Shown: piece after piece, positions 2,774 to 38,280 of the stretch
Layout of the letters: every line of letters begins with the position of its first letter
How positions within the stretch are numbered: the first letter of the stretch is position 1
Origin: Butyrivibrio sp.
GTDB lineage: Bacteria > Bacillota > Clostridia > Lachnospirales > Lachnospiraceae
Length of the DNA: 39,020 nt
Direction of reading: 5' to 3'
NCBI GenBank assembly: GCA_017470505.1
Contig: JAFUYO010000023.1
Coordinates: 1-39,020 of the forward strand
The notes under the pieces: generated by a model
Told to the model about the DNA's origin: nothing
The model's database searches: none
Seen by the model: only the letters and a program-made list of their open reading frames with translations
Translations under genes and position numbers: made by a program

Positions 2774-2883
2774 GTGGTATTTGATCAAAACAGTACGAAG
2801 TGCTTAGTATTCGCTTAGGTAAGTTGAAACAAGACGATTGAAATGTGCAAAATCGAGAGACAATGGCGGCAATTCGTTGTTTT

Positions 2884-2921: not shown

Positions 2922-2965
2922 ATAAGGTACTGTAAAATTTAATAGTTTTTAATCTGGATATTGAC

Positions 2966-3008
2966 TATAATGAAAATATAAAAAGGGGCAAAATTTTTTT
3001 GACCCCTT
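2966..3008 (+). promoter_or_regulatory. Probable promoter and 5' hairpin of the pilus assembly operon
   Basis: A consensus -10 (TATAAT, 2966-2971) has no good -35 at 16-18 nt. Just downstream, AAGGGG (2983-2988) pairs with CCCCTT (3003-3008) around an A/T-rich loop, so it would sit near the start of the transcript. No T-run follows, so it does not look like a terminator. I looked for c-di-GMP-I/II riboswitch cores in 2922-3082 and did not see one. Confidence 0.4.
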
Positions 3009-3082
3009 AAGTCATGATTAATTGAGAATACTATCGAACGTCAGTAATACATAGCACACTACAACCGGCGAAGGGGGCTAAG

Positions 3083-5893: not shown

Positions 5894-7114
5894 GTGAACA
5901 GCTACAAATATACTGCGCTGACATCAACAGGTGAGAAAGTCACCGGCATGATTGAGGCTCTCAATCAGGTAGATGCGACATCCAGGATCAGACAGCAGTA
6001 TGACATGATCGTCAATATCAAGGAAATAAAGGGCGCAGGAGAGCTTCCCGGATTCCTCTCCATGGAGATCGGGAGCGGCAAGCTTAACAACAAGGAATTC
6101 ACCCTGATGTGCAGCCAGCTTGCGACCATCCTCTCGGCAGGAATCCCTATCTCAAGGGCCATCAGGCTGATTGGGGACAAGGTGTCCGACAAGACCCTCA
6201 AAAAGATCATGACTGCAGCCGGAGAGGATGTGGAGGCAGGGCGTCTGGTATCAGCATCCTTTGAGGAGCACGGCGCCAAGATATTCCCCATCACCTTCAT
6301 TGAGACTATCCGCGCAGGTGAGGCGGCAGGTGACCTTGCGGGTGCTTTCGACTCAATGGCACGCCACTTTGACAAGCAGTCCAAGATGGGTGCCAAGGTT
6401 AAGTCAGCCATGACCTACCCTCTGTTCGTTCTTTTTGTGGCTGTTGTAGTCGTGATGATACTGATGGTGAGGGTTGTTCCCACATTTACCGCGATTTTTT
6501 CAGACCTCGGTGCTGAGCTTCCGCTTATGACGAGGATCCTGATCGGAGTATCGGATTTTTTCAGAAATAATATCTTTATCATGCTGCTTGTAATAGCGGT
6601 TATAATAATCGCTTTTATCCTGTATAAGAGAACGCCCAAGGGCTCGATGAACCTGGCAAAATTGCAGCTCAAGCTCCCAATCCTCGGGAACATCGCAGAG
6701 CTCAATGCGGCGAGCCTGTTTGCGAACACGATGGCGACCATGATAGGCGCGGGTCTGCCGATGACCAAGGCTGTTCGTATAACAAGTCAGGTGATGACAA
6801 ACGAACTCTACAAGGAAAAGGTGGAGGAGATGGTCAACAGGATAGAGGAAGGCCGCACCGTGGTCGACTCAATGAGAGAGACCAGGATAATGCCGGATAT
6901 CCTGACGGACATGGTCGGTGTCGGTGAGGAGACCGGTGAGATGAAGCACACGCTCGACGTGACTGCGGCTTATTACGACAACGAGCTCGAGCAGGCGGTC
7001 CAGGCGGCGATTGCGATGCTGGAGCCCACGCTTCTCATATTTGTTGCTATCATTGCAGGATTTATCGTTATAGCCCTGTACGTGGCTATGTTCAGTATGT
7101 ACGGTGCGATGTAA
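5894..7114 (+). CDS. pilC: PilC/GspF inner-membrane platform protein
   Basis: This 406-residue polytopic protein is the platform on which the ATPases act. It opens with the family signature YKYTALTSTGEKVTGMIEA and holds two T2SSF repeats: about 70-195 (FTLMCSQLATILSAGIPISRAIRLI) and about 270-395 (FANTMATMIGAGLPMTKAVRIT). Membrane helices follow each repeat (about 170-195, 220-240 and 375-400). The start is GTG 5894, with a GGGGG run at 5881-5885. No in-frame ATG upstream would keep the conserved start. It lies 17 nt after pilT. Length and motif order are as expected for the family. Confidence 0.95.
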   Translation: MNSYKYTALTSTGEKVTGMIEALNQVDATSRIRQQYDMIVNIKEIKGAGELPGFLSMEIGSGKLNNKEFTLMCSQLATILSAGIPISRAIRLIGDKVSDKTLKKIMTAAGEDVEAGRLVSASFEEHGAKIFPITFIETIRAGEAAGDLAGAFDSMARHFDKQSKMGAKVKSAMTYPLFVLFVAVVVVMILMVRVVPTFTAIFSDLGAELPLMTRILIGVSDFFRNNIFIMLLVIAVIIIAFILYKRTPKGSMNLAKLQLKLPILGNIAELNAASLFANTMATMIGAGLPMTKAVRITSQVMTNELYKEKVEEMVNRIEEGRTVVDSMRETRIMPDILTDMVGVGEETGEMKHTLDVTAAYYDNELEQAVQAAIAMLEPTLLIFVAIIAGFIVIALYVAMFSMYGAM

Positions 7115-7180: not shown

Positions 7181-7993
7181 TTGGTTATATATTACGGCGT
7201 GTGTACAGCCATACTGGGGCTGATCTTCGGGTCGTTCCTCAACTGCACGGCGATGCGCATCGTCAGGGGAGAGGACTTTGTAAAGGGCAGAAGCCACTGC
7301 ATGAGCTGCGGACACGAACTCGGAGCAGCCGACCTTGTACCTTTATTCAGCTACCTTGTACACAGGGGCAGATGCAGGTACTGCGGGGATAAAATATCTG
7401 TGAGATACCCGCTGACTGAGCTGACCTTTATGCTTCTGAGCCTCGGGCTGTACGTGGCGATCATAGGCTTTGGAGGGCTGACACTTCCGGCAATCCTTCT
7501 GTTCTTTAAATGCTGGTTTCTGACCGGGTGCCTCTTTGTTCTGTCGCTGACAGACCTTGAGATATTCGAGATACCCGACGGGACGCTGATAGCAGGAGCT
7601 ATCTCCTGGGTCATCTTTACGATATTGGAACTGATTTTGGGAATACACGGCATCATGTGGGTACTGCACCACGTCCTTGCGGGGCTTCTCGTCGGAGGAC
7701 TGATGCTCCTCATCAGCCTTATAATGGACAAAGTCCTCAAAAAGGACAGCCTCGGCGGCGGCGACATAAAGCTCTTTGCACTATTAGGGCTCTACCTCGG
7801 GTACGCGGGGAGCTACGAGCTGGTTTTGTTATCCTGCGTTATGGGACTTGTCTTTGCAGGGGCGCGGAAAGCTCTTTTTGCGGAGGCGTCAAGGGAATTT
7901 CCCTTTGGGCCGTCAATAGCACTTTCGGGTTACCTGCTGCTCATCTTTGGTGATATGATCACGGACTGGTATCTTGGTCTTTTTATGTATTAA
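7181..7993 (+). CDS. pilD: Prepilin peptidase / N-methylase
   Basis: This 270-residue A24-type aspartic membrane protease cleaves prepilins after the leader Gly and can methylate the new N-terminus. The start is TTG 7181 behind a good GGAGG (7167-7171). Visible marks: GSFLNC near the start, two CxxC pairs forming the cytoplasmic zinc domain (Cys40/43 and Cys65/68), and the two catalytic aspartates, Asp125 in LTDLEIFEIPDG and Asp195 in GGGDIKL. About seven or eight membrane helices are spread along the rest. Because the CxxC pairs are present it is probably bifunctional, as in PilD and unlike small TadV/FlaK enzymes. The gap to pilC is 66 nt, the largest in the early operon, with no terminator seen. 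Substrates are likely the partial pilin at 1-306 and the pilin-like products of 12633-22779. Confidence 0.95.
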   Translation: MVIYYGVCTAILGLIFGSFLNCTAMRIVRGEDFVKGRSHCMSCGHELGAADLVPLFSYLVHRGRCRYCGDKISVRYPLTELTFMLLSLGLYVAIIGFGGLTLPAILLFFKCWFLTGCLFVLSLTDLEIFEIPDGTLIAGAISWVIFTILELILGIHGIMWVLHHVLAGLLVGGLMLLISLIMDKVLKKDSLGGGDIKLFALLGLYLGYAGSYELVLLSCVMGLVFAGARKALFAEASREFPFGPSIALSGYLLLIFGDMITDWYLGLFMY

Positions 7994-8021
7994 AAAACAG
8001 TACATTGCAAGGGGACAACAA

Positions 8022-9845
8022 ATGGCAAAGAATGATGGAATTCTCGGAATTGACATACGGCACGGAAAGCTCTCCCTTTCAATCCTGAAGGGAGGCAAGG
8101 TCCAAAAATCAGTCTGGGCGGACATTCCGTCCAACATAGTGGACGACCACACGGTCCTGTCTGAAAAGCTCTTTTCCGAGTTCCTCAAGGAAAAGATGAA
8201 GGAGCACAAGATAAAGGCCAAGAAGGCCGCAGCTGTCATTGCGGACAGCGATCTTGTCATCAGAAGTCTTGAGATGCCGGAGATGGACGATGCGCAGCTG
8301 AAGCTCAACATACCGTTTGAGTTTGCGGATTACCTGCCCGAGGACATGAAGGACTACATCTTTGACTTTGTGAAAAGAGAAGATGAGCAGAAAAAAGCTC
8401 AGGGCAAGGTGGCTCTCATCGCCTATGCGGTCCCTATCGAGTATATCAGGAAGGTGGGGAACACCTTAAGACTTGCGGGGCTGAGGCTTGAGCGGGCGGT
8501 TCCTGAGACACTTGTGTATGAAGCTCTTTTGGCGCAGGCAGACAAGGGCGAGGACGGGCAAAAAGACATATGCCTTCTTGATATAGGCTCGAACCACATG
8601 AACATGCGTATGTTCAGGGACGGTGCGTACAGGCTCAGCCACATAATAGATGTCGGCGAGAACAGAATCATCCAGACGATAGCCGACGAGCTAAATGTTG
8701 ACGTCAATCTTGCCGAAACATATCTTAGAAGCAACTACCAGGAGTGCCAGAACAGCAGGGCAGCGTCGTCTGCCTACAAGGACATCTCCTTAGAAATCAT
8801 AAAGGGCCTCAATTACTACGATATGTCAGACATGACATCGCGCCTTAAGGACGTCGTGCTGTGCGGCCCGGGAGCTCTGACAGAGCCGCTCGTAATGCTC
8901 TTTCAGGAGAGAATTGACAAGTCGGTGTATACTGTACAGGAGCTCTTCAAAGAGTCAAACAGCGATCCTGCCATCAATGTGAGCTACGCGTCTGCTGCGG
9001 CCCTCATGTGCGTTGCAAACGGCGTTGGAATTGAGGAAAAGGCAGCCTACGCCGATGTGAAAAAGACCGACTGGAAGATCATCGCACTCGGAATAGTTGC
9101 AGCGATCGTTGCACTTGCATTTGGAATAAAAATCGGTATTATTGATAAGTATGACGCTCTGGCAAAGGCTCAGGCACGTGAAGCCGAGCTGCAGGAGAGG
9201 GTCACGGCGGACATGTTTTTCATACAGCAGGCGGACGAGCTCTCGCTCGAGTACTACCATTACACCTGGGATGACATGACCGAGGAGGAGAGAAGCAGAG
9301 TCAGCAGGGTTGAGGTTGCAAAGCTCGCTGACTTCATTGTGAGTCAGGGAGTGTCGGTGAGGTCTTTGAATCTCACAGATTCGACCCTCACTGTTGCGGT
9401 TACGGGAGACTCGCTCAACACCATGAGTAAGCTCTCGGCTGCGCTCACTGACCTTGATATAGTTGAGAGCTGCTCGCTGTCCACGGCGCAGAAAGAGAGC
9501 CCCGAGGATACACAGGTACAGGGCATTTCAGGAGTAGCTGCATCCGGCGGGGTGAGCTATTCGCAGGGCAGCACATCCGATGCGTCGGAGGATGGCAGTA
9601 CGGACAGGAGCGGAGATTTTAGTCGTGATAGTGAGTCCGGGGGCCGTAGCAGTTCCGGTCGGAACAATGATTCTGACAGCCGGGGCAATGCTTCAGAAGA
9701 CAACACAGATGCCGAAAATGGCGAAGAGGGCGAGGGAACCGAGGATGAGCTTGTACTTCCCGAGGTAGAGACCCATGACATAGTAAATGCTGAGATCAAA
9801 ATCTATCTTGCTGCGCGCAGTGCAGAGAATGGGGGAGGCGAGTAA
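8022..9845 (+). CDS. pilM: PilM-PilN fusion (actin-like cytoplasmic ring protein joined to membrane subunit)
   Basis: This 607-residue protein joins two pilus alignment proteins that are usually separate. Residues 1-345 are PilM-like: LGIDIRHGKLSLSIL at the start, a paired actin-fold layout, and CLLDIGSNHMNMRMF as the second phosphate-binding loop. A single membrane helix (about 352-372) is followed by a PilN-like periplasm-facing part (about 375-500) with a coiled-coil start. A Ser/Asp/Glu-rich disordered stretch (about 512-582) precedes a short end segment. I chose ATG 8022, which has AAGGGG 7 nt upstream and matches the PilM start; an in-frame ATG at 7974 would overlap pilD and add 16 unrelated residues. 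It overlaps pilO by one base. Family match for the PilM half is clear, while the PilN half rests on topology and position. Confidence 0.85.
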   Translation: MAKNDGILGIDIRHGKLSLSILKGGKVQKSVWADIPSNIVDDHTVLSEKLFSEFLKEKMKEHKIKAKKAAAVIADSDLVIRSLEMPEMDDAQLKLNIPFEFADYLPEDMKDYIFDFVKREDEQKKAQGKVALIAYAVPIEYIRKVGNTLRLAGLRLERAVPETLVYEALLAQADKGEDGQKDICLLDIGSNHMNMRMFRDGAYRLSHIIDVGENRIIQTIADELNVDVNLAETYLRSNYQECQNSRAASSAYKDISLEIIKGLNYYDMSDMTSRLKDVVLCGPGALTEPLVMLFQERIDKSVYTVQELFKESNSDPAINVSYASAAALMCVANGVGIEEKAAYADVKKTDWKIIALGIVAAIVALAFGIKIGIIDKYDALAKAQAREAELQERVTADMFFIQQADELSLEYYHYTWDDMTEEERSRVSRVEVAKLADFIVSQGVSVRSLNLTDSTLTVAVTGDSLNTMSKLSAALTDLDIVESCSLSTAQKESPEDTQVQGISGVAASGGVSYSQGSTSDASEDGSTDRSGDFSRDSESGGRSSSGRNNDSDSRGNASEDNTDAENGEEGEGTEDELVLPEVETHDIVNAEIKIYLAARSAENGGGE

Positions 9846-10504
9846 TGAACGTTTTTACCAGGGAATTTACTACAAGAGAGAAAGCCCTGCTCCTGGTTCT
9901 GGGAGTGATCGTTATTGCATCTCTCTATTACCTGTTTATCTTCCAGCCTGTAACTGACGGCATCAACAGAGCAGAGAGCAGCGCGACAGACCTCGAGTCA
10001 CAGCTGACGGTCCTCGATGCCAAGGTTGCGCAGATACAGAAGATGCAGAAGTCCATGGAGGAGTACGAGAACAGCGGACGAATTGAGAGCATCATGCCCA
10101 GCTACAGCGCGGGCAAGCAGGAACTGGTTTTCCTCAACAGCACGCTTGCATCCTCTGACGATTACTACGTTGGCTTTACCAACATCACAAGGGAAGGCAA
10201 CCAGATCAGGAGAGAGTTCTCCCTCCGCTTCACGGTAAAGACCTTCCAGGACGCCGAGGACATCATCAACATCTTAGAGCACAGCGACCTGCGGTGCCTC
10301 ATCAGCGACTTCAGCGTCAAGCCGATCGAGCAGAAGGAGTACGTTGAGACCGGCGCAATAGAAGCCAGCTGCGTTGCGACCTTCTACGAGACCATGTACG
10401 GCGGCGTGCCCGACGCGGAGCTCCCCGAGGACTCCAAGCAGCAGGATGAGGAAATCATCGGAACATATGAATATGAGTACGAGCCGGGGTCACTCTCGAA
10501 GTGA
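9845..10504 (+). CDS. pilO: PilO-like pilus alignment protein
   Basis: This 219-residue bitopic protein has a short cytoplasmic start, one membrane helix (about 14-34), a coiled coil (about 38-75, AESSATDLESQLTVLDAKVAQIQKMQ) and an alpha/beta domain (about 85-200), the standard PilO/GspM plan. PilO pairs with PilN through the coiled coil and links PilM to the rest of the machine. ATG 9845 overlaps the pilM-pilN stop (ATG within TAATG), so translation is probably coupled and the partners made in equal amounts. No PilP gene follows, as expected without an outer membrane. The acidic Glu/Tyr-rich tail (EEIIGTYEYEYEPG) is unusual. Confidence 0.85.
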   Translation: MNVFTREFTTREKALLLVLGVIVIASLYYLFIFQPVTDGINRAESSATDLESQLTVLDAKVAQIQKMQKSMEEYENSGRIESIMPSYSAGKQELVFLNSTLASSDDYYVGFTNITREGNQIRREFSLRFTVKTFQDAEDIINILEHSDLRCLISDFSVKPIEQKEYVETGAIEASCVATFYETMYGGVPDAELPEDSKQQDEEIIGTYEYEYEPGSLSK

Positions 10505-10557
10505 TCGCTTGCGGCTCAAAGGAGCATAAAACAGCAGTAGAAATGAGGAGTGGTACT

Positions 10558-12585
10558 ATGAAAAGAATACGCGGAGTGAGAGGACTTAGGATTGTTTCAA
10601 TGCTTGCTCTTGGAGGCCTGGTGGCGATGTGTTCACCCCGGGCTGTTTGCCATGTGAGAGCGTCGGAACCTGTGAAGTTCACCATATATCTTATGATTGA
10701 AGAGAACGGTTCTTTTGCGACCGACGATGATGGTGAATACATTCAGCTCTTTGACGAGAAAGGAAATCTGCTCGCCTATAACGACGATGTCAGGGCATAC
10801 CTTGAGTCACATTCTGATTCTCAGAGTAAAGCCAAGCTTGCGGCAAAGGAGCAGGAGTTCTACCTGATAGATGGGAAATTATACCTGGATGAGTCCGGAT
10901 CGATGGAGCTGAAAAATCTTTCACAGGTTATGCCTGTTTTATTCAAGTACGGCTCAATTGACTCAGGCTATACTCTTGAGGCGGACGACGGGACGGTGTA
11001 TATCAACCCCCTGGATGTCAATGGGGAGTCTGTTTATGTTGCGAGAGTTGGCGGAACCTATGAAAAGCTTCCTGCATTTACTATCGCTTCTGACGGTGAG
11101 ATAGGCTATCTCGAAAAGGGCTTTGTCGGAGAGGGAGACAACGAGGTTTCTTTCGTGTTTGACTCCAACTACTTCTACGATGAGTATTTGAATCAGCTCG
11201 AAAGCATCGATGGAGTCATACCTGATAATGACGATGAGAGCGCGCCTATGTTTACGGGATACTATGTATCAAACGGAGACGAGCGCAGGCAGTTTGTCGA
11301 CATTGACGGCTCTATTGTTCTCTCGGCTGAGGATTACAAGAATATAGCAGGCGCCGATGCAAGAGCGAAGGCTGAGTACTGCAACGTACTCACGCTTTCA
11401 GCAGAAGGTGCTGATTCACTGACCGTTTATTCAGATATCTACAACGGAAGTCTCTATGACGATTATCAGAGAACTTCTGATTTCGGATATATTGGAGGGG
11501 ATATTCTATCGCAGCTGTCGTATGACGAAGATGAAAACGCCGAGAGAGGTCATTTTGCGGGTTACTATCGCGACAACGACGAGGGCGAGGCAACCATACA
11601 GGTTGTTGATGGCTCCGGAAATGTGATTTCGGATAACATCGGAGTACTCGATGGAAATAAAGAGTACTTTGCGCGCTTTTACCATGTCCTGAGGGCTGAT
11701 GGAAACGATGAGGATACTGACATCTATTTTTCCGACGGAAAGGTATACAGCGATACTGAGCTTCAGAGCGAGATATCCAATATCAAAGATGTCATCGGAG
11801 ATCTTCCCGAAGATGAGGAAGAGGAAGTACATAGCGATGAGAAGGATATGGATGGCGTATCCAAGAAGTATTTCATAGGTTATTACTTCAGCTCTGACTT
11901 TGGCTCGGACAAAGACGGAGATTCTGAGGAAGAGGATGTGCTTCAGTCTGAGTATGACGAAGAAGAATTCGATCCCGCAGATGTAGAAATTGGAAAGGTT
12001 AAATTTGCAGACAGGGAAGGGAATATAGTATTCGACCCTGAGGATGCAGATATAGACGGAGATCACAGGATTTACCAGAACTTCTACACGGTAACAGTCT
12101 GGGATGACGGCGAAGTTGAGATAACAGAAGATGCCGATGAGGTCAAGGACGAGGTTAAGTTAGAAGAGCCTGAAGAGGTTGAGGAGATTATCGACGAAGT
12201 TGTTGAGGAAGAAGTCGTTGAGGAGATCACAGAGGAAGTTACTGATGAGACCACCGGCGGTGAAGGTGCGGCTGAGGGCGCCCAGGGCGAGGCAGACGGA
12301 ACTGAGGGAACAGATGTAACTGACGGTTCTGCTACTGACAAAACCACTGAGGAGTCTGATGAGTCTGAAGATAAGGAAAAAGGTGTAGAAGAGACAGCTA
12401 AGCCTACTGACAAGGATCAGACCGGTAACGAAGGCTCTGATTCCGGCGACGGCGGAAATGGTGACGGTGGAAACGGTGACGGCGGAAACAGTGATGGAGA
12501 AGGCGGCGTCACAGAAGACAGCGCGGCTGCAGCCACAACTGAGGCACCTGCGGAGATCCCGGCAGCGGAAAATGACGGAGAATAA
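10558..12585 (+). CDS. Large acidic secreted protein of the pilus operon, function unknown
   Basis: I do not recognise this 675-residue protein as a named family. I chose ATG 10558 (GAGGAG upstream, then MKRIRGVRG and a hydrophobic stretch ending near CHVRAS), which gives a Sec signal peptide; the longer GTG start at 10501 has no ribosome site and overlaps pilO. The body has three similar units beginning with an F/Y-x-GYY motif near residues 232, 332 and 438, spaced about 100 residues, each followed by a VDxDGSI-like strand pattern. These resemble the FxGWY repeats of Listeria-Bacteroides/InlB-B domains, also abundant in the next gene. The last ~170 residues are low complexity: Glu/Val/Asp, then GDGGN repeats, then Ala/Glu/Thr. 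No LPxTG or membrane anchor is visible. Its place between pilO and the giant pilin suggests a partner of the pilus, which is inference. Confidence 0.7.
   Translation: MKRIRGVRGLRIVSMLALGGLVAMCSPRAVCHVRASEPVKFTIYLMIEENGSFATDDDGEYIQLFDEKGNLLAYNDDVRAYLESHSDSQSKAKLAAKEQEFYLIDGKLYLDESGSMELKNLSQVMPVLFKYGSIDSGYTLEADDGTVYINPLDVNGESVYVARVGGTYEKLPAFTIASDGEIGYLEKGFVGEGDNEVSFVFDSNYFYDEYLNQLESIDGVIPDNDDESAPMFTGYYVSNGDERRQFVDIDGSIVLSAEDYKNIAGADARAKAEYCNVLTLSAEGADSLTVYSDIYNGSLYDDYQRTSDFGYIGGDILSQLSYDEDENAERGHFAGYYRDNDEGEATIQVVDGSGNVISDNIGVLDGNKEYFARFYHVLRADGNDEDTDIYFSDGKVYSDTELQSEISNIKDVIGDLPEDEEEEVHSDEKDMDGVSKKYFIGYYFSSDFGSDKDGDSEEEDVLQSEYDEEEFDPADVEIGKVKFADREGNIVFDPEDADIDGDHRIYQNFYTVTVWDDGEVEITEDADEVKDEVKLEEPEEVEEIIDEVVEEEVVEEITEEVTDETTGGEGAAEGAQGEADGTEGTDVTDGSATDKTTEESDESEDKEKGVEETAKPTDKDQTGNEGSDSGDGGNGDGGNGDGGNSDGEGGVTEDSAAAATTEAPAEIPAAENDGE
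12445..12504 (+). repeat. 15-bp in-gene tandem repeats (GDGGN units)
   Basis: About four imperfect copies of a 15-bp unit encode Gly-Asp-Gly-Gly-Asn, in frame near the end of the acidic protein. Copy number could vary without shifting the frame. Confidence 0.7.
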
Positions 12586-12632: not shown

Positions 12633-15600
12633 ATGAGTATTGTCAAATCTGTTTTTACCAGAAAAAAACGACATAGAAGAGGTTTCACGCTTGTTGAACT
12701 CTTGATGGTTGTTCTGATAATTGGTATCCTTTCCGGAATTACAGCGGTAGGGTCTGTTGTGATGTACAGAAATATGAAACAGACACAGCTGGATAAAACG
12801 GCGGAGACAATATTCCACGCAGCTCAGGACAGACTCAGTGAATTATATGCCTATGGCAAGGAGAGTGAGGTTGAGTTTGACGATGCCAGCCTGTCCATGT
12901 CGGTATCGACCGGTGAAGAAGGTAAGAGTGCGAAAGTCCTGTTTGTAACCCGCGATGTAATCGATAATTCAAGTTATAGTACTGAGGCTCGTAATGCTGC
13001 GCGCATCATTATGGGCGACGATACAGTAAATGCTGATGTTTTCAGTAATTCCTGGATTGTTGAATATCAGCCTGAGACCTGCCGTGTGCTCAACGTTATC
13101 TATACTGACAAGGAAGGCACCGGACTCGGAAGCTTTGGGAGAAACATCAATGCTCTCACACCGATGGCTGACCTGATAGAGGATCTTCAAGACCATGCTT
13201 TTTCATCCCGTAGGTATAAATATGGCTGGTATGGTGAAGGGACCCCTATTGTCACGGAAGTTAAGCAGATAGGTAACACCTCTGTAGATGTCGACATAAT
13301 CAATGAAGAGAATCTTTATGCTCACGTAAAGGTTTCCATCGGCTGGGAAGATGATCTGACATCAACTGAGATTTCGAAGTTCCTTGAGAACAAGTCATTA
13401 ACCCTGCGGATCCAGGACGCTGATGCGGCATCTTCATCTGCTGCATACAAGGATTTTGTGATACCTGCAAAAGGTCTTTTCCTGTCACATGATACAACGC
13501 TTACAAATGCCGGTGGTTATTACAATGCCAAGTCCGATGCTGATGCAGGGTCAGGTGTTAACTATGTTACGAATAAATATCTGACGGCATCGTTTGATAT
13601 GCTGCTGGACAGCTTGAGCGCAGGCGCATTTACAGGCAGTAACACACTAAAAACCTTTGATGGATATGGCACAGGTATCACTCCCGGTAGTAACTTCTAT
13701 CTGATAGCTACGGTGGCGAGCACTGATGGCTCCACACCAACTGTACAGGACTATGACGTTGATAACAGCCTGTTTGCAGGGTATGCGGCAGGTACCGCTA
13801 AAAAAGCATATATTGAGTACGGAAGACATCTTCAGAATGTCGCAAGAGCACAGATAACAGACTTTAATGCTATCCAGATTGCTGACCTTGACTTTGGTCT
13901 GGTTACTACAGTTGCAAGAGACACTAATCTCGATGAATTCAATAAATACTGGGCTTCTGTCTATCCGGATGTAGATGGATTTACAATTTATACACCCGAA
14001 AATTCAGATAAGCTTTTAACATATGATGGTCAGAACCATGTTATCAAGAATATCAAGATAAACAGGACGACTGCGGACGGAAAAAACTCCGGAATATTCG
14101 GAGATCTGTCTAAACTCAGCAGTGTCAGGAATGTAATTATTACCGGCGATAATGAGAACAGCACGAAGGTGAGCGCTGCCGCTACTGAGGCAGTAGGAAT
14201 GTTCGCTGCAAAGCTAACCGGAATATCAAATCTTGAGATCACAAAGTGCTACGTAAATAAGGTAAGCGTAGACGGTGCATCAACGACTTCTCTTGGAGGA
14301 TTTATCGGAGAAATTTCTGCATCGGTATCATCTGCAACGATTACAGACTGCGCAATGATGTCAGTAAGCGCAGGAGCAACTACGCGTGGAAAATATTCAG
14401 GCGCATTTGCAGGTAAGGTTGCAGGTAAGATTGACGGCACTTTTACCGGAACAAATCTCTATGCCTTTGGTGGAACGGTTAAGGCGTCCGAAGCTTCAGG
14501 CGGCCTTATCGGCTATTCGGATGCCGCACCTGTGTACTTTACTATCAGCGGATGTAAGGTATCCGGGACGGAGGTAACTGCATCATCAGGTAATGCAGGT
14601 GGTATTATCGGAAATGCCAACAATACAACAATCACGCTTAACGCTGATTGTGCTGCTGCGGGCTGCACGATCAGGTCGGCAGGTGGAAATGCAGGCGGAC
14701 TGGTTGGCGGCGCGTACGGCTTGCTCTATATTACTGATTCTGAGTGCTATATGCCCACTTTGTCAGACAGTGCGGTAGTTGCAGGAAAGGTCAGCCAGGA
14801 ATTTGCAAAAGCCATCGGACTTACGGAAGCGACCGGAGAGACAAACGTTACATATGATAATCTTCATACACTGAATGTATTTAAGTATGTCAGTGAATTG
14901 AAAACAGCAGCAGCGGTTTCGGAACTTAAATGGATCAGCGGCAGTCAAAATGCCGGTGGTCTGGTTGGTGTTTCTTCAAAGGATATTACTGTTAAGCATT
15001 CATTTGCATCCGGAGTGCTTTCATCATCTGCGAATGCAGGCGGAGCTGTAGGATCGACGAGTGGAAAACTTTCTGCAGTAGGTTCTTATGCAGATTTCTA
15101 TATTTCAGGGAAAAAAGTAGGTGGATTTGTGGCTGCCTGTGACGAGGCATCTACATTTGACACAAGCTATACGGCAGGTTTCCTTGTAGGAACTGCTGAC
15201 ACAGCAGGTGGTTTTGCGCCTGTACAGGTCGGAAATATCTCCAATTCCTACAGTGTGTTTAACTTTGATGATGTAAGTAATTCCACTCTGTTTGCTGGAA
15301 ATGCAGAAGAAGACGAAGAGCATACGCTCGATACAAATGGAACTGTAGCCAACTATCCTGACGTAGATGAGCATCATTATTATCCCGTAGCACTCAGCTC
15401 TTTAGGCAAGGCATACTATGTTTACTCTTCAACAGATTTTGATGTAGACAATGAAAATGCTGTGGTTATTACAGCAGCAGAGCTTGCAAATAATATGAAT
15501 GAGGACGGGGTAACACTCCTGTCGGCAAGCGGAACAGATAATGCACACTTTGTTAAAGGGCAGGGAACCGGAAATACAGCGCCATATTTGATGGCGTCAT

Positions 15601-18600
15601 TCCTTGGCGATAAGCTGCATAATTATCCTTTCCCGACTCTTACCTGTGATAAGTTTGTTGGCAGTACTGCATCTACCACTGTTCTGAAGCACTACAACGA
15701 CTGGCTCATAATTGATGACAGCAAATACAGTATAGAGCTGTGGTATATGGTGTACGATGAGAATCTTGGCGGCCTTAAGACTAATGTTACCGGTGTCGGA
15801 CCTACCGGCATGAAGTACATAAAGAGAGTAAAGGCTGTGCCTGTAACAATTAATGGTCAGACTGAGTATCAGATAAATGCCGGAACTCGAAACAGCTTCA
15901 GCGGATACAAGTTTGTTGGATACTTTGACCCTGTTACTGCGTCAAAGCCTCTGACTGCATCGAGTGCTTTTGACAGAACAAAGAAAATGGATTACCTGTA
16001 TTCAGGTATTTCAAATAAGATTACCAAGAAAATGAAGACCGGCGACATTATTCTGCAGACATCCATAACACGGAATAATACCTTCGGGGTTACGTGCGCA
16101 GATCACGCGAAGATCTTTGAGAAAGATAAGTCAAGCACTTATACATCCACCAGAAGATTATACGCTGTATACAGGTACAATAAGCCTTACACAGTGTCTC
16201 TTTCCTTTGTGGAATATGAACTTCCTGAAGCTGACGCCAAGACAGAGTCAAGGACACTTCAGCAGATTTATAATGGCTCAAAACTGGCTCCTGTTCAGAC
16301 CTTTGAGGTTATCTACAAAGAGCCTGGCAGGTCTAATTATCCAAACCTTGCTTCTGACGAGGAAGTGACGCAGGACTATATAGCTGAGAAGCAGCTTTTC
16401 GATCAGTACAAGGCCAGTGGGGATAAGACTGCCTACGAGAGTGCTTTGGCTGCGCTTGAGGCCCAGAGGTCAACTGCGAACCAGGTGATAACCAGGTCTG
16501 TGCCCAACTATACAGAGGCCGGATATGATCTGTTTGATATCGACAGATTGTATACAAACAAGTTGGTTACATCAGAATATCGCGATAACGTAAAGGCTAA
16601 GCCTGTATACACTATGGTCAGAATCAGCCCGGATACCAAAGACCCTGATGGTAATGATATTGAGTACAAGGACAGGTGCCTTAAGATTGAGGCTCGTGAT
16701 GACAATAAGATCAGTATGTCTACTAATAAGGCGTATCAGTATGTCGTTGTATACAATACAAATAGGGCAAGGCAGACCCTGAATCTGGTATTCAGAAATA
16801 CTGAGCCTGTTGAGGATGGAACGGTTCCGATTGTAAACAGTCATGATGATTTGAGTGCTGATCTTGCTGAAAGAGAGTTCATGATTGATTCGTCGAATAC
16901 GTACATGGTTAGAGTAAGTGGTAGGGGATTCACGGATAAAGGGTTATTCTTAGATGATTTGATGAAGAAGGAGAGCCATCCTAGTTTTACTGGTTTTGAG
17001 CTAAATACTGCTGATTCAACGTATGTTCATTCATCAGACGGAACCGAAACTGTTACGTTGTATTATGATCGGTCTAAGTATGTGCTTTCATTTAGATTGA
17101 ACGATTCCGGAGAGACTCCAAAGGAAAAATACTATGACAGTGAAGACAGACCTGAGGTAGTTGATCTGTATTATCGTCAGGAGTATCAAGGAAAGCTTTG
17201 GGAAATAGCATCAACGGATATTGAGGTGACTATATCCGGCAATAATACATCTGATTTGAGGAATTCTAATAATATTCAAATAGGGACTATAACAAGCTAT
17301 GGCGGGTATTATTATTGGAGAAGGGAACGAAGCTTTGGCAGCTATGAGGAATTGGAAGATTATATACGAACAGGATATGATGAGGATTCTGGCGTTTTTA
17401 CGCTGCTATTTTACTATGATGATGGTGATTATTATTGGGATGATTACAGCTGGTCTAAAACAGGAGGAGACTATACTTACGCATTTAACAGGAGCGGTTT
17501 TTTCCTTTCCGGTTTTAAGTATTATCATGAGGATAGTGATGGTTCTGAGCATTTTAACGGGAGATCTTATTCATATGCAGGTGAAGTGAAGACAGTTAAT
17601 GATATTCTGACTATGCCTGCCGGTAACGTTATGGTAGAGCCCATATGGACACAGGATCCGAAGCATCTAAGAGTTGAGATCTATTACCAGAGCGCATATG
17701 ATGACGTAAGTGCAGAGGATCCAAATAAAGAATATGAGTTCTACAATGCTATGACATACGATGTTACAAATGGCGTTGCGACCACAAGGAATAGAAATAA
17801 AATATCTATATCCGCATTGGTTGCGAGCGTAAATAAGAGCCTTGTAGACTATCTCGAGCCATATTTTGCTGCGGGAGATTTTTATAAGAGAACTGAGCAT
17901 AACCTTACAGGAACAGGGTTTAACCCGTATGTCTCAAACGAAGCAAATTCAGTGAGATATGGTTATCCACATGATAGCGGAAATGACACAATGGTGGTTG
18001 CGCTTTACTATGATCGTGCACCGGTTGAATATAGGTTCCACTTTACTACAAGCGATTATGGATTTAACTCCGATAATGTTAGATATAATATCCGTTCACA
18101 ATGGGGCGATTTTGTATCCCTTAGCGATCTTTATAATTATTCTGGCAATGATGCTGAACATTTGGCGTTGAAGAATGAATTAATTAACAAAACAGGCGAG
18201 TATGTTGCAGTTGGAAAACATGCGAAGGTAAAGGTTGTTAACGATAATCATTCAGTTGTGGCGAATACAACCATTGATTATGGCGGCGTTAATGGTACCA
18301 GATATCGTACAATATCAGTAAATAGTAATAATAGTAGTGTAAAATTTGGGACAACAATATATTATCAATCGCTTTACGGAGCACCTGCAGTATTTTCATC
18401 GGATAATTCCAGTTTGATTCCATATTGGTATTGCTATATGGGAAAGAGTGATCCTGAGATATTGCAAAGATATATAATTGGTGGTTCTACTGCCTATGGA
18501 GGCGCTACCTATTATAATGACTTTAGTTTACAGTATTTTGCTGATATTAGTACTGATACGGCGAGCCTGAGTAAGGATTTGTATCCTTATTACCCACCGG

Positions 18601-20876
18601 CCAATTCAGGAAGTACCATATTTTATTTGGAAGTGGCACCCAGTGATGAACCTAGCTGGACAAACCTAAGAACAGACGCGTCGCAAAATGTAACGAGAAA
18701 TATGTTTAAGAACGCTCCTGACATCAATTCTGTCGGAAAAGCTACTAATGGTGATGTTGTCTTTTGGAGAAATGGGGCGATTCGTGTATTTGTTGACGGG
18801 TACACTACTTATGCTTATGCATTAGACGATGGAACACTTAGGACTGATATACCTGATAGGGCCGGATCTAATTCACGAAATATAACCATATATCTGATGA
18901 GAAATACCTATACCATGAGCTTTGTTGATACGAGTCTTAGGGCAGGGACGAATTATCCTACATCATATCTGTATAAGCAGGAAATACCAAGGCTTCCAAG
19001 AGCTGATGAAATAGTCAGTCCGGGAGATGATTACATATTTGATGGGTGGTATACTTCCAGTGCATACGCTGTGAAGATTGCCGGTGCGGATGGTGTGATA
19101 GATGACGGATACAAGGCGTTGGAATCAACACTTTTGGACTCAAATGGCAATCTACTCATGAACTGTGAGAATATACAGGTATTTGCCAAGTGGGCACCAA
19201 AGCACTGCATCATTACATTTAATCCATTCTATCCTGATGCAAGGTTTTATGGAATAGACAACAGACTTACGGTATCGCCTAATCCGGTAGATTATGGAAG
19301 TACTATCGCAACTCTTCCGGATGTGCTGCCTCCACAGGGAACAATCTATGCTGATAGAGACATAATTGAAGAAGATGACGAGATATTCTATGTGCAAAAA
19401 AATGCAGCAGGAGCACCAATCCTAAAATATAAATTCCTGGGATGGTATAAGTACACTGGATTTGATACACCCAGCAGCATGGAGGATCTTGTGGTTCAAT
19501 TTGTTCCAGGGACAGATGCGAGTGCAGGTGCGACTCAGGTCACAGATCATACGGTACTCTATGCTAAGTGGCAGCAGGTACTCGGAGAAGCTATATATAC
19601 AATTGTCTGTCTTGATTATTCGAATGGTGGCGAAGAAATATTCAGTGTTCAGAGATCTGGAACAGCTGGTGAGACTGTTACTATAGCGCCTCCTGCGTTT
19701 GATGATCCTACTGATAAGGACGTGAAGATAACAAAAGGTAAATATGAGGATTTGAAAGAATATGAGGCTCTTTCAAATGCAATAACCAGAACGCTGACCA
19801 GTGGAATGACGTTCAAGTTTAGGTACAGAAAATCCATAGATTGGACGTATACCGTCAAGAATGTCTTGCATGTTGGTGAGAAGGGCGTCGGTAAAGGCAT
19901 TGATATACTGATAAATAGTACAGATTATAAGACTACATATAATCAGGTACAGTTTGCAGCATCTGATCTTGAAGGGTATTCAATTTACGAATATCAGATT
20001 GCTGAAGAGGATCCTATTGTAAAGACTGATACCAGTGGATACATACCGATTGAAAAGCCTGAGGATAGTGACGTTCTTGAAATAACCGTTCGCTACACTC
20101 TAGATGATGGAGTAGTTATTGCCAAGAACAAAACTACCGATTACTACCAGTATGATCCGGTTGATTTGGCAGATGTTCCTGAAGGAGTATTTGATTGGGC
20201 AGACACTGTATACAAGCCTGCAATTATTTACACCATAAACGGAAAAGAAACCTACGAGATCATTGAAAGAGCAGAGGAATCGGGAGATTCGACCGCTGTG
20301 ATAAAGACTATATCTGAGACTAATCCCGGATCTTATGAGGTAACAATGAAAATCGGTGCTGTCAGCTCAACTGAGCCTCTTACGTACCTTGCTCTTAGTG
20401 ATATTGGAAAGACAGATGTCTCGATTAAGAAGTCAGCGCATGCTTTGCGATTCACATTTGACGCAGAAGATCCTACATCAACAGCTCAGATTTACTATGC
20501 ATTTGCCGGTAGCCACGCAGGGTATTGGTATTGGGATAAGGAACTGAATTATCGTATCGGTGCAGACGGTGACAGTATAGTATCAGCTGACATAAGTGCT
20601 CTTACAGGGGATGTTCTTGCAAATGCACAAAAGATACTCGATGGAATTAATGCGACATATGATCAACAGACTAGTGAGTATAAGTCATTCTTCGTGATTG
20701 TAGGAACTGATGCATACACAGTAGTTGACCGACATGGAAACCTTAGAAACGGTGCAATGTTGAACAATGACTTGGTAGCCCATGTAGAAAGCAGTACGGA
20801 GACTGACAATGCGTATGAGATCAAATTGTACGATACTACAGGAGCAGTGATTGGAAGTGTAATTGTATATCTCTAA
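12633..20876 (+). CDS. Giant prepilin-like adhesin (2747 residues) with GLUG and InlB-type repeats
   Basis: The N-terminus is a complete type III prepilin signal: a basic leader (TRKKRHRR), Gly17-Phe18 as the cleavage site, then FTLVELLMVVLIIGIL with the conserved Glu at +5 (Glu22) and a long pilin helix to about residue 65. Everything after that is atypical. About residues 480-880 hold some ten GLUG-like repeats (GGFIGE, GGLIGY, GGIIGN, GGLVGG, GGLVGV, GGAVGS), a beta-helix type found in surface adhesins. About residues 1030-2320 hold repeated strand units of the InlB-B/Listeria-Bacteroides type (LYYDR, FDGWY, VFAKW, FLGWYKY, LYAKW). Residues 2320-2747 continue as beta-rich modules. Usual pilins have 120-250 residues. 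GGGAG-type ribosome site at 12619-12625 precedes ATG. The likely role is a pilus-borne adhesin held by its pilin helix at the fibre tip; this is inference from architecture and from the three minor pilin genes that follow. Confidence 0.88.
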   Translation: MSIVKSVFTRKKRHRRGFTLVELLMVVLIIGILSGITAVGSVVMYRNMKQTQLDKTAETIFHAAQDRLSELYAYGKESEVEFDDASLSMSVSTGEEGKSAKVLFVTRDVIDNSSYSTEARNAARIIMGDDTVNADVFSNSWIVEYQPETCRVLNVIYTDKEGTGLGSFGRNINALTPMADLIEDLQDHAFSSRRYKYGWYGEGTPIVTEVKQIGNTSVDVDIINEENLYAHVKVSIGWEDDLTSTEISKFLENKSLTLRIQDADAASSSAAYKDFVIPAKGLFLSHDTTLTNAGGYYNAKSDADAGSGVNYVTNKYLTASFDMLLDSLSAGAFTGSNTLKTFDGYGTGITPGSNFYLIATVASTDGSTPTVQDYDVDNSLFAGYAAGTAKKAYIEYGRHLQNVARAQITDFNAIQIADLDFGLVTTVARDTNLDEFNKYWASVYPDVDGFTIYTPENSDKLLTYDGQNHVIKNIKINRTTADGKNSGIFGDLSKLSSVRNVIITGDNENSTKVSAAATEAVGMFAAKLTGISNLEITKCYVNKVSVDGASTTSLGGFIGEISASVSSATITDCAMMSVSAGATTRGKYSGAFAGKVAGKIDGTFTGTNLYAFGGTVKASEASGGLIGYSDAAPVYFTISGCKVSGTEVTASSGNAGGIIGNANNTTITLNADCAAAGCTIRSAGGNAGGLVGGAYGLLYITDSECYMPTLSDSAVVAGKVSQEFAKAIGLTEATGETNVTYDNLHTLNVFKYVSELKTAAAVSELKWISGSQNAGGLVGVSSKDITVKHSFASGVLSSSANAGGAVGSTSGKLSAVGSYADFYISGKKVGGFVAACDEASTFDTSYTAGFLVGTADTAGGFAPVQVGNISNSYSVFNFDDVSNSTLFAGNAEEDEEHTLDTNGTVANYPDVDEHHYYPVALSSLGKAYYVYSSTDFDVDNENAVVITAAELANNMNEDGVTLLSASGTDNAHFVKGQGTGNTAPYLMASFLGDKLHNYPFPTLTCDKFVGSTASTTVLKHYNDWLIIDDSKYSIELWYMVYDENLGGLKTNVTGVGPTGMKYIKRVKAVPVTINGQTEYQINAGTRNSFSGYKFVGYFDPVTASKPLTASSAFDRTKKMDYLYSGISNKITKKMKTGDIILQTSITRNNTFGVTCADHAKIFEKDKSSTYTSTRRLYAVYRYNKPYTVSLSFVEYELPEADAKTESRTLQQIYNGSKLAPVQTFEVIYKEPGRSNYPNLASDEEVTQDYIAEKQLFDQYKASGDKTAYESALAALEAQRSTANQVITRSVPNYTEAGYDLFDIDRLYTNKLVTSEYRDNVKAKPVYTMVRISPDTKDPDGNDIEYKDRCLKIEARDDNKISMSTNKAYQYVVVYNTNRARQTLNLVFRNTEPVEDGTVPIVNSHDDLSADLAEREFMIDSSNTYMVRVSGRGFTDKGLFLDDLMKKESHPSFTGFELNTADSTYVHSSDGTETVTLYYDRSKYVLSFRLNDSGETPKEKYYDSEDRPEVVDLYYRQEYQGKLWEIASTDIEVTISGNNTSDLRNSNNIQIGTITSYGGYYYWRRERSFGSYEELEDYIRTGYDEDSGVFTLLFYYDDGDYYWDDYSWSKTGGDYTYAFNRSGFFLSGFKYYHEDSDGSEHFNGRSYSYAGEVKTVNDILTMPAGNVMVEPIWTQDPKHLRVEIYYQSAYDDVSAEDPNKEYEFYNAMTYDVTNGVATTRNRNKISISALVASVNKSLVDYLEPYFAAGDFYKRTEHNLTGTGFNPYVSNEANSVRYGYPHDSGNDTMVVALYYDRAPVEYRFHFTTSDYGFNSDNVRYNIRSQWGDFVSLSDLYNYSGNDAEHLALKNELINKTGEYVAVGKHAKVKVVNDNHSVVANTTIDYGGVNGTRYRTISVNSNNSSVKFGTTIYYQSLYGAPAVFSSDNSSLIPYWYCYMGKSDPEILQRYIIGGSTAYGGATYYNDFSLQYFADISTDTASLSKDLYPYYPPANSGSTIFYLEVAPSDEPSWTNLRTDASQNVTRNMFKNAPDINSVGKATNGDVVFWRNGAIRVFVDGYTTYAYALDDGTLRTDIPDRAGSNSRNITIYLMRNTYTMSFVDTSLRAGTNYPTSYLYKQEIPRLPRADEIVSPGDDYIFDGWYTSSAYAVKIAGADGVIDDGYKALESTLLDSNGNLLMNCENIQVFAKWAPKHCIITFNPFYPDARFYGIDNRLTVSPNPVDYGSTIATLPDVLPPQGTIYADRDIIEEDDEIFYVQKNAAGAPILKYKFLGWYKYTGFDTPSSMEDLVVQFVPGTDASAGATQVTDHTVLYAKWQQVLGEAIYTIVCLDYSNGGEEIFSVQRSGTAGETVTIAPPAFDDPTDKDVKITKGKYEDLKEYEALSNAITRTLTSGMTFKFRYRKSIDWTYTVKNVLHVGEKGVGKGIDILINSTDYKTTYNQVQFAASDLEGYSIYEYQIAEEDPIVKTDTSGYIPIEKPEDSDVLEITVRYTLDDGVVIAKNKTTDYYQYDPVDLADVPEGVFDWADTVYKPAIIYTINGKETYEIIERAEESGDSTAVIKTISETNPGSYEVTMKIGAVSSTEPLTYLALSDIGKTDVSIKKSAHALRFTFDAEDPTSTAQIYYAFAGSHAGYWYWDKELNYRIGADGDSIVSADISALTGDVLANAQKILDGINATYDQQTSEYKSFFVIVGTDAYTVVDRHGNLRNGAMLNNDLVAHVESSTETDNAYEIKLYDTTGAVIGSVIVYL

Positions 20877-20912: not shown

Positions 20913-21848
20913 TTGAGAAAAGTTCTTTTTCACAAAAAAAGAATAATGCCTAAAAAGCTGAGATCTCAGAGAGGTGCTTCAGTGATCTTTGCCCTGGTGT
21001 CGTTTATGTTTGCAGCAATGATTTCCTTTGTGGTGGTCAATGCCGCATACAGCGCGGCAGCCAGGGTGAGGAATCTGAAGTATGATGAGCAGTCATTTCT
21101 GCTTGCTCAGTCTATGACAGGTATCATCACTGAGGCGCTTGCAGGGAGCGGAGCTGTGGCCCAGCTCCCTGACGGCAGCCAGCTCAATTCGCCATCTGGA
21201 ACCCTCAAGTATGACGCTTTGACAGTCAGTTATCAGTACATCGAGCAAAAAGAAACTTCACTTACAGGTACAACTTCTGTGAGATTCTACAATGCGTCTG
21301 AGAATGGTTCTTCATTTGTAAAAAGTACGACGAAAGGCGCGAGTAAAAAGACCTTTACTTATTTTAAGGGGAAGGCCTTAACCGCAGGTACTGCGGCAGC
21401 TTCTGTTCAGACCATGATTTTTGATATGGCTAAGAGAATCGATCAGGGACTGGCAGATGCTGATGGAAATGTTAAGGCTATGGAAACACTTAGGATAACC
21501 TATAAAAATCCTGATTCAGAAGATGAATACATGGTAACTACAGAGTTTACTATGGACAAGTCATATTCGATAAATGCGGTCACGACTGCAGTTGTTACGC
21601 CGAAATCCGGCGCCGGGAATTCAACATACATTGTGAGAATGGACGCGGGTGCAGCGGTGAGGACGGATAAACTGATATGTACGGGAACAAAGGATTCCAC
21701 AGGCAATACGATATCTGCTACGTTTTCAGACAAGATAGCTGATACTGCAGGAGAAGAGCTGGTAAAAGTGTCATGCTATTCTGTAACATGGCCACCCGAG
21801 CAGGTTAGAAGCGTTTATGTGACAGCACCTTCATCAGTTATACATTAA
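20913..21848 (+). CDS. PilX/GspK-like minor pilin
   Basis: This 311-residue protein has a long basic leader ending in KLRSQRG, then ASVIFALVSFMFAAMISFVVV, a hydrophobic pilin helix without Glu at +5, and an amphipathic continuation with AARVRNLKYDEQSFLLAQSMTG. That pattern matches PilX and GspK, the minor pilins that cap the pseudopilus tip and characteristically lack Glu5. The C-terminal 220 residues are a Ser/Thr-rich globular domain I cannot assign. The start is TTG 20913 with GGAG 9 nt upstream; the ATG at 20946 has no ribosome site and would shorten the leader. It lies 36 nt after the giant pilin. Confidence 0.75.
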   Translation: MRKVLFHKKRIMPKKLRSQRGASVIFALVSFMFAAMISFVVVNAAYSAAARVRNLKYDEQSFLLAQSMTGIITEALAGSGAVAQLPDGSQLNSPSGTLKYDALTVSYQYIEQKETSLTGTTSVRFYNASENGSSFVKSTTKGASKKTFTYFKGKALTAGTAAASVQTMIFDMAKRIDQGLADADGNVKAMETLRITYKNPDSEDEYMVTTEFTMDKSYSINAVTTAVVTPKSGAGNSTYIVRMDAGAAVRTDKLICTGTKDSTGNTISATFSDKIADTAGEELVKVSCYSVTWPPEQVRSVYVTAPSSVIH

Positions 21849-21869
21849 AATGTGGACTCGGAGTTTTTT

Positions 21870-22166
21870 ATGAGAATCATCAAAGGACTGAAGAAAAAGC
21901 TAACTTCAAAGCGAGGGGAAACGCTTACTGAGACAATTGTTTCCCTTCTTATAGTAGTTCCGGCCATGGTCATGCTGGCAGGGGCGATAGTTACTGCGGC
22001 CAGGATTAACAGCGAGGCGCGGAATTCTAAAGCTTCCAATTACCCTGATTTTACTACTGCGTCAGAGTCGTCAGGTAGTATTTCAGGAACAGGTGATGTC
22101 ACTTTTTCCGGTGGAAGCATAAAGTGGTGTCATGAGACGGATTCAATTTACTACTATTTTAGGTAA
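21870..22166 (+). CDS. Small minor pilin-like protein
   Basis: This 98-residue protein has a basic leader (MRIIKGLKKKLTSKRG), then ETLTETIVSLLIVVPAMVMLAGAIV. Gly at -1 and Glu at +5 of a prepilin signal are present, but +1 is Glu and not the usual Phe/Met. The helix continues to AARINSEARN and is followed by a short Ser/Gly-rich domain. I chose ATG 21870, which has CGGAG 7 nt upstream; a GTG at 21852 is in frame but has no ribosome site. It lies between the PilX-like and PilW-like genes, where a PilV/GspI-type minor pilin would be expected. The globular part is unusually small, so it could also be a linker pilin. Confidence 0.7.
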   Translation: MRIIKGLKKKLTSKRGETLTETIVSLLIVVPAMVMLAGAIVTAARINSEARNSKASNYPDFTTASESSGSISGTGDVTFSGGSIKWCHETDSIYYYFR

Positions 22167-22170
22167 GAAT

Positions 22171-22779
22171 ATGAAGAAAGCTGCAAAGAAACTCAAAACT
22201 AAATTATCAGGTAAAAAAGGCTTTACGCTGGTTGAGGTTCTTTTCTCCGTGATGATCCTGATGCTCTCGACGTCAATTATGATCCAGTGCTTTGCGCTCG
22301 GGATGGGTCACATAGTCAGGGAGACCAGGGCGTCGGAGGCGCAGCTTCTTTGCTCGTCACTTACATCATCGCTTCAGAACGAGCTGACTTATGCCCGCGA
22401 CATAAAGGTTACCGACGGAAAGCTGGATACTTATTTTAGCAGTTCAAGAGGTATGGGGGCGGGATGCAGCATAGTAATCGATAACGGCGAAGTTAAGATA
22501 ACAAATGCAACTACGGAGTATCCGCTCGTTTCAAGCGCAAACTACAAAGCAGCAAACCGTGTCGGTGTAAGCAGTGGAAACGAGTATTTCCTCCAGGCTT
22601 CTTTTAAAGATAATGCGATTACGTGGGATAGCACGAACGGAGTGTTTGTTGTGACGCTCTGGGTTGACGATGCTCTTCATCCTGTCGGCGCGGACGCTGC
22701 CAGGGACAAGGCTCTCGCCTACTCGAAGTTCAGCGTAAAGCCCCTCGCGGGAGTGAAGATGGCAGAAAGTGGAGGCTGA
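22171..22779 (+). CDS. PilW/GspJ-like minor pilin
   Basis: This 202-residue prepilin has a Lys-rich leader (KKAAKKLKTKLSGKKG) followed by FTLVEVLFSVMILMLSTSIMIQCF, a textbook type III signal with Glu at +5. The later part (about 65-200) has alternating strand patterns (YFLQASFKDNAITWDSTNGVFVVTLWVDD) like GspJ/PilW minor pilins. I chose ATG 22171, 4 nt after the preceding stop; the upstream in-frame ATG at 22132 lies inside the previous gene and would extend the leader unnaturally. It is the last gene of the operon, followed by a hairpin at 22853. With the two genes before it, it probably forms the tip-priming complex on which the giant pilin is mounted. Confidence 0.85.
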   Translation: MKKAAKKLKTKLSGKKGFTLVEVLFSVMILMLSTSIMIQCFALGMGHIVRETRASEAQLLCSSLTSSLQNELTYARDIKVTDGKLDTYFSSSRGMGAGCSIVIDNGEVKITNATTEYPLVSSANYKAANRVGVSSGNEYFLQASFKDNAITWDSTNGVFVVTLWVDDALHPVGADAARDKALAYSKFSVKPLAGVKMAESGG

Positions 22780-38279: not shown

Positions 38280-38280
38280 T

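Follow-up and report, generated by a model that had tools for sequence, protein, structure and literature searches.

How does a protein of 2747 residues, over ten times the usual length of a pilin, come to sit in a type IV pilus operon behind a complete prepilin signal, and what would it do there? The question is raised by a contig of Butyrivibrio sp. (JAFUYO010000023.1), whose 39,020 nucleotides were analysed in full and are called the window below. A preliminary description of this DNA had placed a prepilin signal on a frame of this length among pilus genes, and both the coordinates and the matches to Pfam and NCBIfam agree: an ATG-started frame with zero internal stops covers positions 12633-20876 of the forward strand, and its product can be divided as follows.

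12633..20876, + strand: putative giant modular minor pilin, 2747 aa (open reading frame, N_methyl match, homologues)
12633..12683, + strand: leader peptide of the giant, residues 1-17 (sequence; PF07963)
12684..12851, + strand: pilin alpha-1 helix, residues 18-73, with Glu at +5 (helix 20-73 modelled at low pLDDT; A6 profile match)
12852..13832, + strand: conserved globular part, residues ~74-400, its C-terminal end being the RHLxN motif (alignments; model partly of low confidence)
13863..15272, + strand: GLUG beta-helix, residues ~411-880 (motif copies, model, structural alignment)
15273..15632, + strand: low-confidence linker, residues ~881-1000 (model; genomes G038 and G072 have the gene divided at the equivalent place)
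15633..20873, + strand: passenger specific to its class, residues ~1001-2747; some three InlB/Flg_new-like repeats (homology, pattern)

The cleavage site reported earlier between Gly17 and Phe18 is present, as is the glutamate at +5: the translation starts with MSIVKSVFTRKKRHRRG, a basic leader ending at the Gly-Phe site, and continues with FTLVELLMVV, in which Glu22 is position +5 of the mature chain. Residues 12-37 match N_methyl (PF07963) at 28.7 bits (cut-off 21.2), and the NCBIfam scan gave 27.0 bits for TIGR02532 (cut-off 16.3). The giant has the class III signal of a modular type IV pilin, made up of the terminal Gly, the hydrophobic tract and Glu at +5, and, with its GLUG-type beta-helix and passenger, also the extra module foreign to pilus biology. 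Against solved pilins, the match of the A6 profile is confined to the N-terminal helix region; the model of the head has a helix at residues 20-73 and strands at 140-158, with block pLDDT values of 31-59 for residues 1-210.

The genes upstream of the giant are largely those of the pilus machinery:

1..306, + strand: small major-type pilin, its 3' part of 101 codons, cut at the contig and window edge (similarity to the G032 major pilin)
3083..4801, + strand: PilB-type extension ATPase (TIGR02538, 558.6 bits, under the equivalog cut-off of 675.65)
4821..5876, + strand: PilT retraction ATPase (TIGR01420, 418.5 bits, cut-off 319.1)
5894..7114, + strand: PilC/GspF platform protein (TIGR02120, 302.9 bits, under the cut-off of 424)
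7181..7993, + strand: PilD-type prepilin peptidase (sequence; homologues at the same operon place in relatives)
7974..9845, + strand: PilM (PF11104, 60.7 bits, cut-off 27)
9845..10504, + strand: PilO/T2SSM-like protein (PF04612, 44.3 bits, cut-off 27.8)
10501..12585, + strand: protein of 694 aa immediately preceding the giant, its N-terminus signal-peptide-like by eye and its tail acidic

The product of 7181..7993, which we take from its motif to be of the PilD type, has no NCBIfam match over cut-off. The pilin fragment at the edge has a frame open from base 1, the window being the whole contig, and its bases 1-174 match residues 42-98 of the 146-aa major pilin of G032 with 53% identity (E 2.4e-12); in G013, G027, G032 and G022, the major pilin lies directly upstream of pilB. 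A search of the own genome with N_methyl, in which only the giant and a J-like protein exceeded the cut-off, had at first suggested that a major pilin was absent, and was overturned by the search with the G032 pilin. Since a separate small major pilin is encoded here alongside the pilus machinery, as is characteristic of the loci of modular pilins, the giant is to be counted as a minor pilin. The outer-membrane secretin that marks the systems of type II secretion pseudopilins was not found in the own genome, which is 83.9% complete: the best score for PF00263 was 13.8 bits against a cut-off of 27.5, with the control search positive in nine of 14 genomes.

Other genes of the window deserve a brief mention. 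A sulfatase/LTA-synthase-type gene (PF00884; 440-2773) separates pilB from what remains of the major pilin, and the GC content is lower, 36-39%, in the first 3 kb around it. No Pfam family was found for the 694-aa protein, in which three F-x-GYY repeats can be recognised by eye; genes resembling it lie ahead of the giants that share the window's class of passenger. Further downstream, secreted-type proteins with similar signal regions are encoded in tandem (25222-29562, 30211-33894, 34191-38000 and 38275-38901): two S8 subtilases with Big_2, one CAP/Big_2 protein and a fourth with a similar start.

Three further pilins follow the giant in the operon:

20913..21848, + strand: K-like minor pilin without Glu5, with Phe at +5 (alignment)
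21852..22166, + strand: short minor pilin with Glu5, I-like by position (sequence)
22132..22779, + strand: minor pilin with Glu5, J-like by position (PF07963, 21.8 bits, cut-off 21.2)

With the giant counted, the operon holds four minor pilins, one of them lacking Glu5, and, judged by these features, the giant and its three neighbours have the make-up of an HIJK tip set, although in the window none of the HIJK models of Pfam and NCBIfam scored over its cut-off. In such sets, according to the accessible parts of the published accounts, the subunit without Glu5 caps the complex (PMC10191384, PMC9934059). Glu5 is missing in all 15 aligned K-like proteins, and a pilin without it adjoins the giant in 13 of the 14 Butyrivibrio giant loci. 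K-, I- and J-like partners were all called automatically in eight of these 14, and a recount added the I-like gene of G013; as for other loci, the stretch from G022 is cut, the third gene of G015 and G076 is probably a prepilin frame of 74-75 codons, the third minor pilin of G035 has Ala in place of the Gly before the cleavage site, and no K, I or J neighbours were seen within the stretch read around the G018 giant. The gene order is giant-K-I-J in the window's class and K-I-J-giant in the second class of giants described below.

What follows the pilin part is only partly as first described. The estimate of about ten GLUG-type repeats finds support in a confident beta-helix model and in nine copies of the motif G-[GAMI]-x-x-[GA], at residues 522, 555, 590, 623, 656, 688, 775, 803 and 830 and spaced by 32-35 or 27-28 residues with a single gap of 87. 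Pfam's Glug family (PF07581) reaches 17.2 bits, under its gathering score of 20.5; despite this, the nine motifs and the modelled fold indicate that the giant is built like a GLUG-repeat protein. The model of residues ~450-880 is all-beta, its pLDDT lying mostly at 77-96, and the modelled beta-helix aligns to known beta-helix structures, most closely to a putative IgA1 protease and IgA1 proteases. As it also resembles lyases and tailspikes, the fold is no proof of adhesion. The "many" InlB-type repeats, on the other hand, dwindled to about three: beyond residue 1000, the InlB core pattern occurs at three places, 1624, 2136 and 2268, and the best piece for Flg_new (PF09479) reaches 25.1 bits, at one place, against a gathering score of 27. 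The AlphaFold model of residues 1560-2747 is mostly beta and unreliable (mean pLDDT 53.9, pTM 0.32). Arithmetic with typical repeat sizes gives, as a rough estimate, a beta-helix ~9 nm long, to which a passenger made up of small beta domains in a row would add some tens of nm.

A frame of this size in a fragmented assembly (56 contigs, 83.9% complete) calls for caution, and the preliminary description had itself named a sequencing error, fusing a short pilin to a separate surface protein, as one of the points on which its reading could fail; separate genes do occur in two genomes. A search of the genus with residues 1-450 gave matches in 27 of 79 Butyrivibrio genomes, and in 15 of the 79 the homologous frame is longer than 2400 codons: 14 are unbroken frames of 2736-3857 codons and the one in G063 is a piece of 2402 codons. 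Sources include the isolates FCS014, NC2007, INlla16, AC2005, XPD2002, LC3010 and VCD2006, the frame overrunning the fetched stretch in LC3010 and VCD2006. The window's giant aligns over its full length with five relatives at 38-53% identity. In comparison with G027, each of five segments has pN of 0.26-0.31 and pS of 0.71-0.80, with synonymous sites near saturation; as pN is well below pS in all five, the whole giant is under purifying selection. Because continuous frames are found in 14 Butyrivibrio genomes, five of them with full-length homology, and in 22 more long prepilin open reading frames across the family, an error of assembly or sequencing that fused a pilin gene with one for a surface protein has practically no chance of being the explanation, and we treat it as refuted.

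Comparison of the giants with each other reveals where they vary. Among the 14 Butyrivibrio giants, BLASTP links 86 of 91 pairs for residues 1-420 and 75 of 91 for residues 420-950; for the last 1200 residues, it links 36 of 91, and these links divide the giants exactly into three classes, with 6, 7 and 1 members. By these alignments, the N-terminal ~1000 residues are a constant mount, while the distal passenger is swapped among unrelated classes. Positions invariant across 15 giants (the window's and 14 from the family) include Gly17, Glu22, Glu144, Gly198, Arg398, Leu400 and Asn402 in window numbering, which argues for one homologous mount. At E <= 0.01, the domains in 11 Butyrivibrio giants were N_methyl (in nine), SpaA (four), Flg_new (three), Glug (two) and DUF285 (one), and those in the 15 giants of window and family N_methyl (13), Glug (eight), Flg_new (three) and fn3 (one). 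Single scans placed SpaA in two second-class giants, one of them also with Flg_new, gave 19.6 bits for N_methyl, just under cut-off, in one second-class giant, and found eight DUF285 stretches in the third-class giant.

The two parts also exist apart. G038 and G072 encode pilins of 755 and 779 residues that match giant residues ~20-950. A second gene of the operon, flanked by the pilO-type gene and K, encodes a separate secreted-type passenger, of 3716 residues in G038 and 4979 in G072. These passengers match positions ~970-3818 of the second-class giant of G014; homology was detected to second-class giants only, and none to the passenger of the window's class. In the window's giant, the low-confidence linker lies at the place equivalent to this split. 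Because G038 and G072 encode them separately, mount and passenger form a Rosetta-stone pair, which suggests that the two belong together functionally; a mount together with a homologous passenger was found in 16 Butyrivibrio genomes, fused in 14 and split in two. G003, G028 and G046 have a pilin of 670-675 residues followed by separate secreted-type genes, and the neighbour protein of G003 carries Flg_new repeats (47.2 bits) and has no detectable homology to the giants. Upstream of pilB, G028 and G046 (L033, L034) have arrays of small pilins, eight in the one and six in the other, whose N-terminal helices are nearly identical.

The preliminary description had proposed a search for other giant prepilin proteins, and such proteins are not rare. 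The Butyrivibrio profile, A1, matches 71 of 348 sampled genomes of the family Lachnospiraceae, with a matching open frame of at least 1000 codons in 39 (the own genome included; in G314, G100 and G331, the match itself crosses a stop) and of at least 2000 in 32. We read 20 stretches from 19 of the 39 genomes, holding 22 long frames, each with a prepilin-type start among its first 90 residues; the frame of G409 is cut by the contig end. Other pilus genes are present in the stretch for 11 of these 22 giants, of which the two of G417 rest on one weak PilO-type match, and 14 have a K-like neighbour without Glu5 as read by eye; three of 17 K-like neighbours called by script were rejected as not being pilins. 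The longest matching frame, of 7664 codons, belongs to G246: it is a single frame on contig C19 (L075 178-20000, L076 1-3166) that lies in a type IV pilus operon and has a prepilin start. Loci with two giant pilin genes were seen in G417, G192 and G251 (L066, L071 and L072), consecutively in the latter two. Beyond the family, the A6 profile found frames of more than 1000 codons in at least six genomes of five other families in a class sample of 293 (G686, G507, G560, G624 and G497, and G642 by the helix only), and in at least one genome of another class (G879) in a phylum sample of 249.

Within the genus, a PilB-type ATPase was read in at least 35 of the 79 genomes, the best 22 candidates or fewer being scored per genome, and all 15 genomes with a frame of more than 2400 codons are among the 35 (hypergeometric 6e-7, a value that ignores kinship). 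Compared with these 35, a PilT-family ATPase over cut-off is found in all 79, and PilT thus occurs without an obvious pilus. Another pilus type in Butyrivibrio has large proteins of its own, of 2735 (cut) and 2278 residues with signal-peptide-like starts (L100 1-8207 in G002, L103 5123-11959 in G021), which adjoin pilin-like proteins of 450-807 residues.

The signal, the operon and the domains support the earlier proposal of a pilin-mounted adhesin as far as a prepilin, encoded in a pilus operon, and a minor pilin with an adhesin-like multidomain passenger are concerned. We consider it probable that the giant is a modular minor pilin presenting, at the tip of the pilus, an adhesin-like passenger that can be exchanged; the tip position and the adhesion are what we infer. 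The prepilin signal would take the giant into the membrane, leaving the C-terminal part of 2.7 thousand residues outside, and PilD would, by analogy with the work on modular pilins (PMC8179133, PMC9934059), remove the leader. The mature helix may then join the pilus with the three neighbouring minor pilins, the one without Glu5 capping the complex. A head of this bulk leaves hardly any room for further subunits above it, so that the giant would be best placed at or next to the pilus tip; from there, extension driven by PilB would bring the passenger out beyond the wall, and retraction by PilT could draw it in again. The N-terminal ~1000 residues, with pilin, beta-sandwich and GLUG beta-helix, would serve as the standard mount, the passenger being either fused to it, as in the giants, or a separate secreted-type protein that may dock on it, as in G038 and G072. 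The 694-aa secreted-type protein encoded upstream is a possible partner of the giant. More tentatively, and with doubts about the whole of it, one could see here a display system of monoderm gut bacteria, in which a conserved tip pilin-GLUG mount carries giant passengers of several unrelated classes, fused in most lineages and docked non-covalently in others; this would be a functional counterpart of PilY1 and, with single pilin chains of up to ~7660 residues, comprise perhaps the largest pilins known.

The same sequence could be given other readings. A mature pilin helix could act as a transmembrane anchor, and a motif search of the giant found no LPxTG, as one might expect of a surface protein held in the membrane that uses the prepilin helix only for export and anchoring, outside any pilus. 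We find this unlikely: a minor pilin without Glu5 and the pilus machinery adjoin the giant, Glu at +5 is kept in 14 of 14 Butyrivibrio giants (A1) and in 20 of 20 rows of A6, and giants within the genus are confined to genomes with a PilB-type ATPase. Nor do we give much credit to the idea that the giant itself is what functions, as a single stalk raised through the wall by a short pseudopilus, with no long pilus being made. The passenger may be large enough to reach out alone, and a base consisting of the minor-pilin complex could be enough, but the small major pilin and the PilT of the window, as in dynamic type IVa pili, make this distinctly improbable.

The passenger itself might have a role other than adhesion to a substrate or host, such as holding cells together, binding phages or other microbes, or being processed by the secreted subtilases encoded nearby. 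The two S8 subtilases and the CAP/Big_2 protein encoded downstream would fit, as would the IgA1 proteases, putative and other, that are the closest matches of the beta-helix. Pfam scans of the window's giant found no catalytic or ligand-binding domain over cut-off, however, and the passengers of relatives carry Flg_new, SpaA, DUF285/LRR and Glug, domain types of surface binding proteins, and we judge the odds of such a role to be slim. A minor pilin with an adhesin-like passenger displayed at the tip is the reading that we retain.

Parts of this picture have precedents. In the accessible text on the modular pilins PilB and PilC of Streptococcus sanguinis (PMC8179133, PMC9934059), these are already set beside PilC/PilY1; an "alternative to PilY1" is thus a plausible idea, but no new one. 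Like the giant, the two have a prepilin signal and an adhesive module grafted on a pilin, belong to a monoderm and are minor pilins proposed for a tip complex; they are of 50.5 and 52.8 kDa, whereas the giant is of roughly 300 kDa, they carry one or two grafted modules in place of a conserved beta-sandwich and GLUG mount followed by at least 1700 residues, and the giant family differs further by its natural fused and split forms. CofB and CofJ of enterotoxigenic E. coli, where a large beta-rich minor pilin mounts a separate secreted adhesin (PMC8179133, as far as accessible), resemble G038 and G072, a likeness by description; in contrast to that pair, 14 of 16 Butyrivibrio genomes with mount and passenger fuse the two. 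ComZ of Thermus thermophilus is likewise described as a minor pilin with a beta-solenoid module, but its solenoid is inserted in the pilin sheet and thought to bind DNA, whereas that of the giant follows the pilin part (PMC8179133, same parts). The same text has PilY1/PilC of diderms as very large and tip-presented, with a constant mount and a variable module, as in the giant; PilY1 is, however, a non-pilin with a beta-propeller mount, and the giant a pilin without a matching propeller domain. The Pfam scan found no match to the C-terminal beta-propeller (PF05567/IPR008707) in the giant, and a search for PF05567 in the 79 Butyrivibrio genomes gave zero matches, as it did in 14 control genomes.

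We take IPR011493 to be the GLUG entry. Raynaud et al. (2021), in the accessible part, list an architecture of pilin plus IPR011493 and call it a predicted M26-family peptidase, so that the combination of pilin and GLUG as such has probably been listed already; in contrast to the giants here, it is given there without analysis of size, family, operon or passenger, and the most extreme multidomain modular pilin named has 860 residues. In the literature searched, as far as accessible, neither pilins as large as these nor the conserved mount, the exchange of passengers or the split forms were found described. As far as these sources go, modular pilins in general are thus known, and what is new is the giant size, the mount, the exchange of passengers and the split.

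In the family, single pilins of 2.7-7.7 thousand residues, with a common mount and a swapped passenger, are found in about one in nine of the sampled genomes. In Ruminococcus albus, like this Butyrivibrio a rumen bacterium and of the same class, type IV pili have been linked to adhesion to cellulose (PMC6916266, in its accessible part). The natural split of mount and passenger offers a direct and cheap test of how an adhesin may be presented at a pilus tip in cells without an outer membrane, and the giants raise the physical question of how a pilin-borne head of 300-800 kDa would pass through the cell wall.
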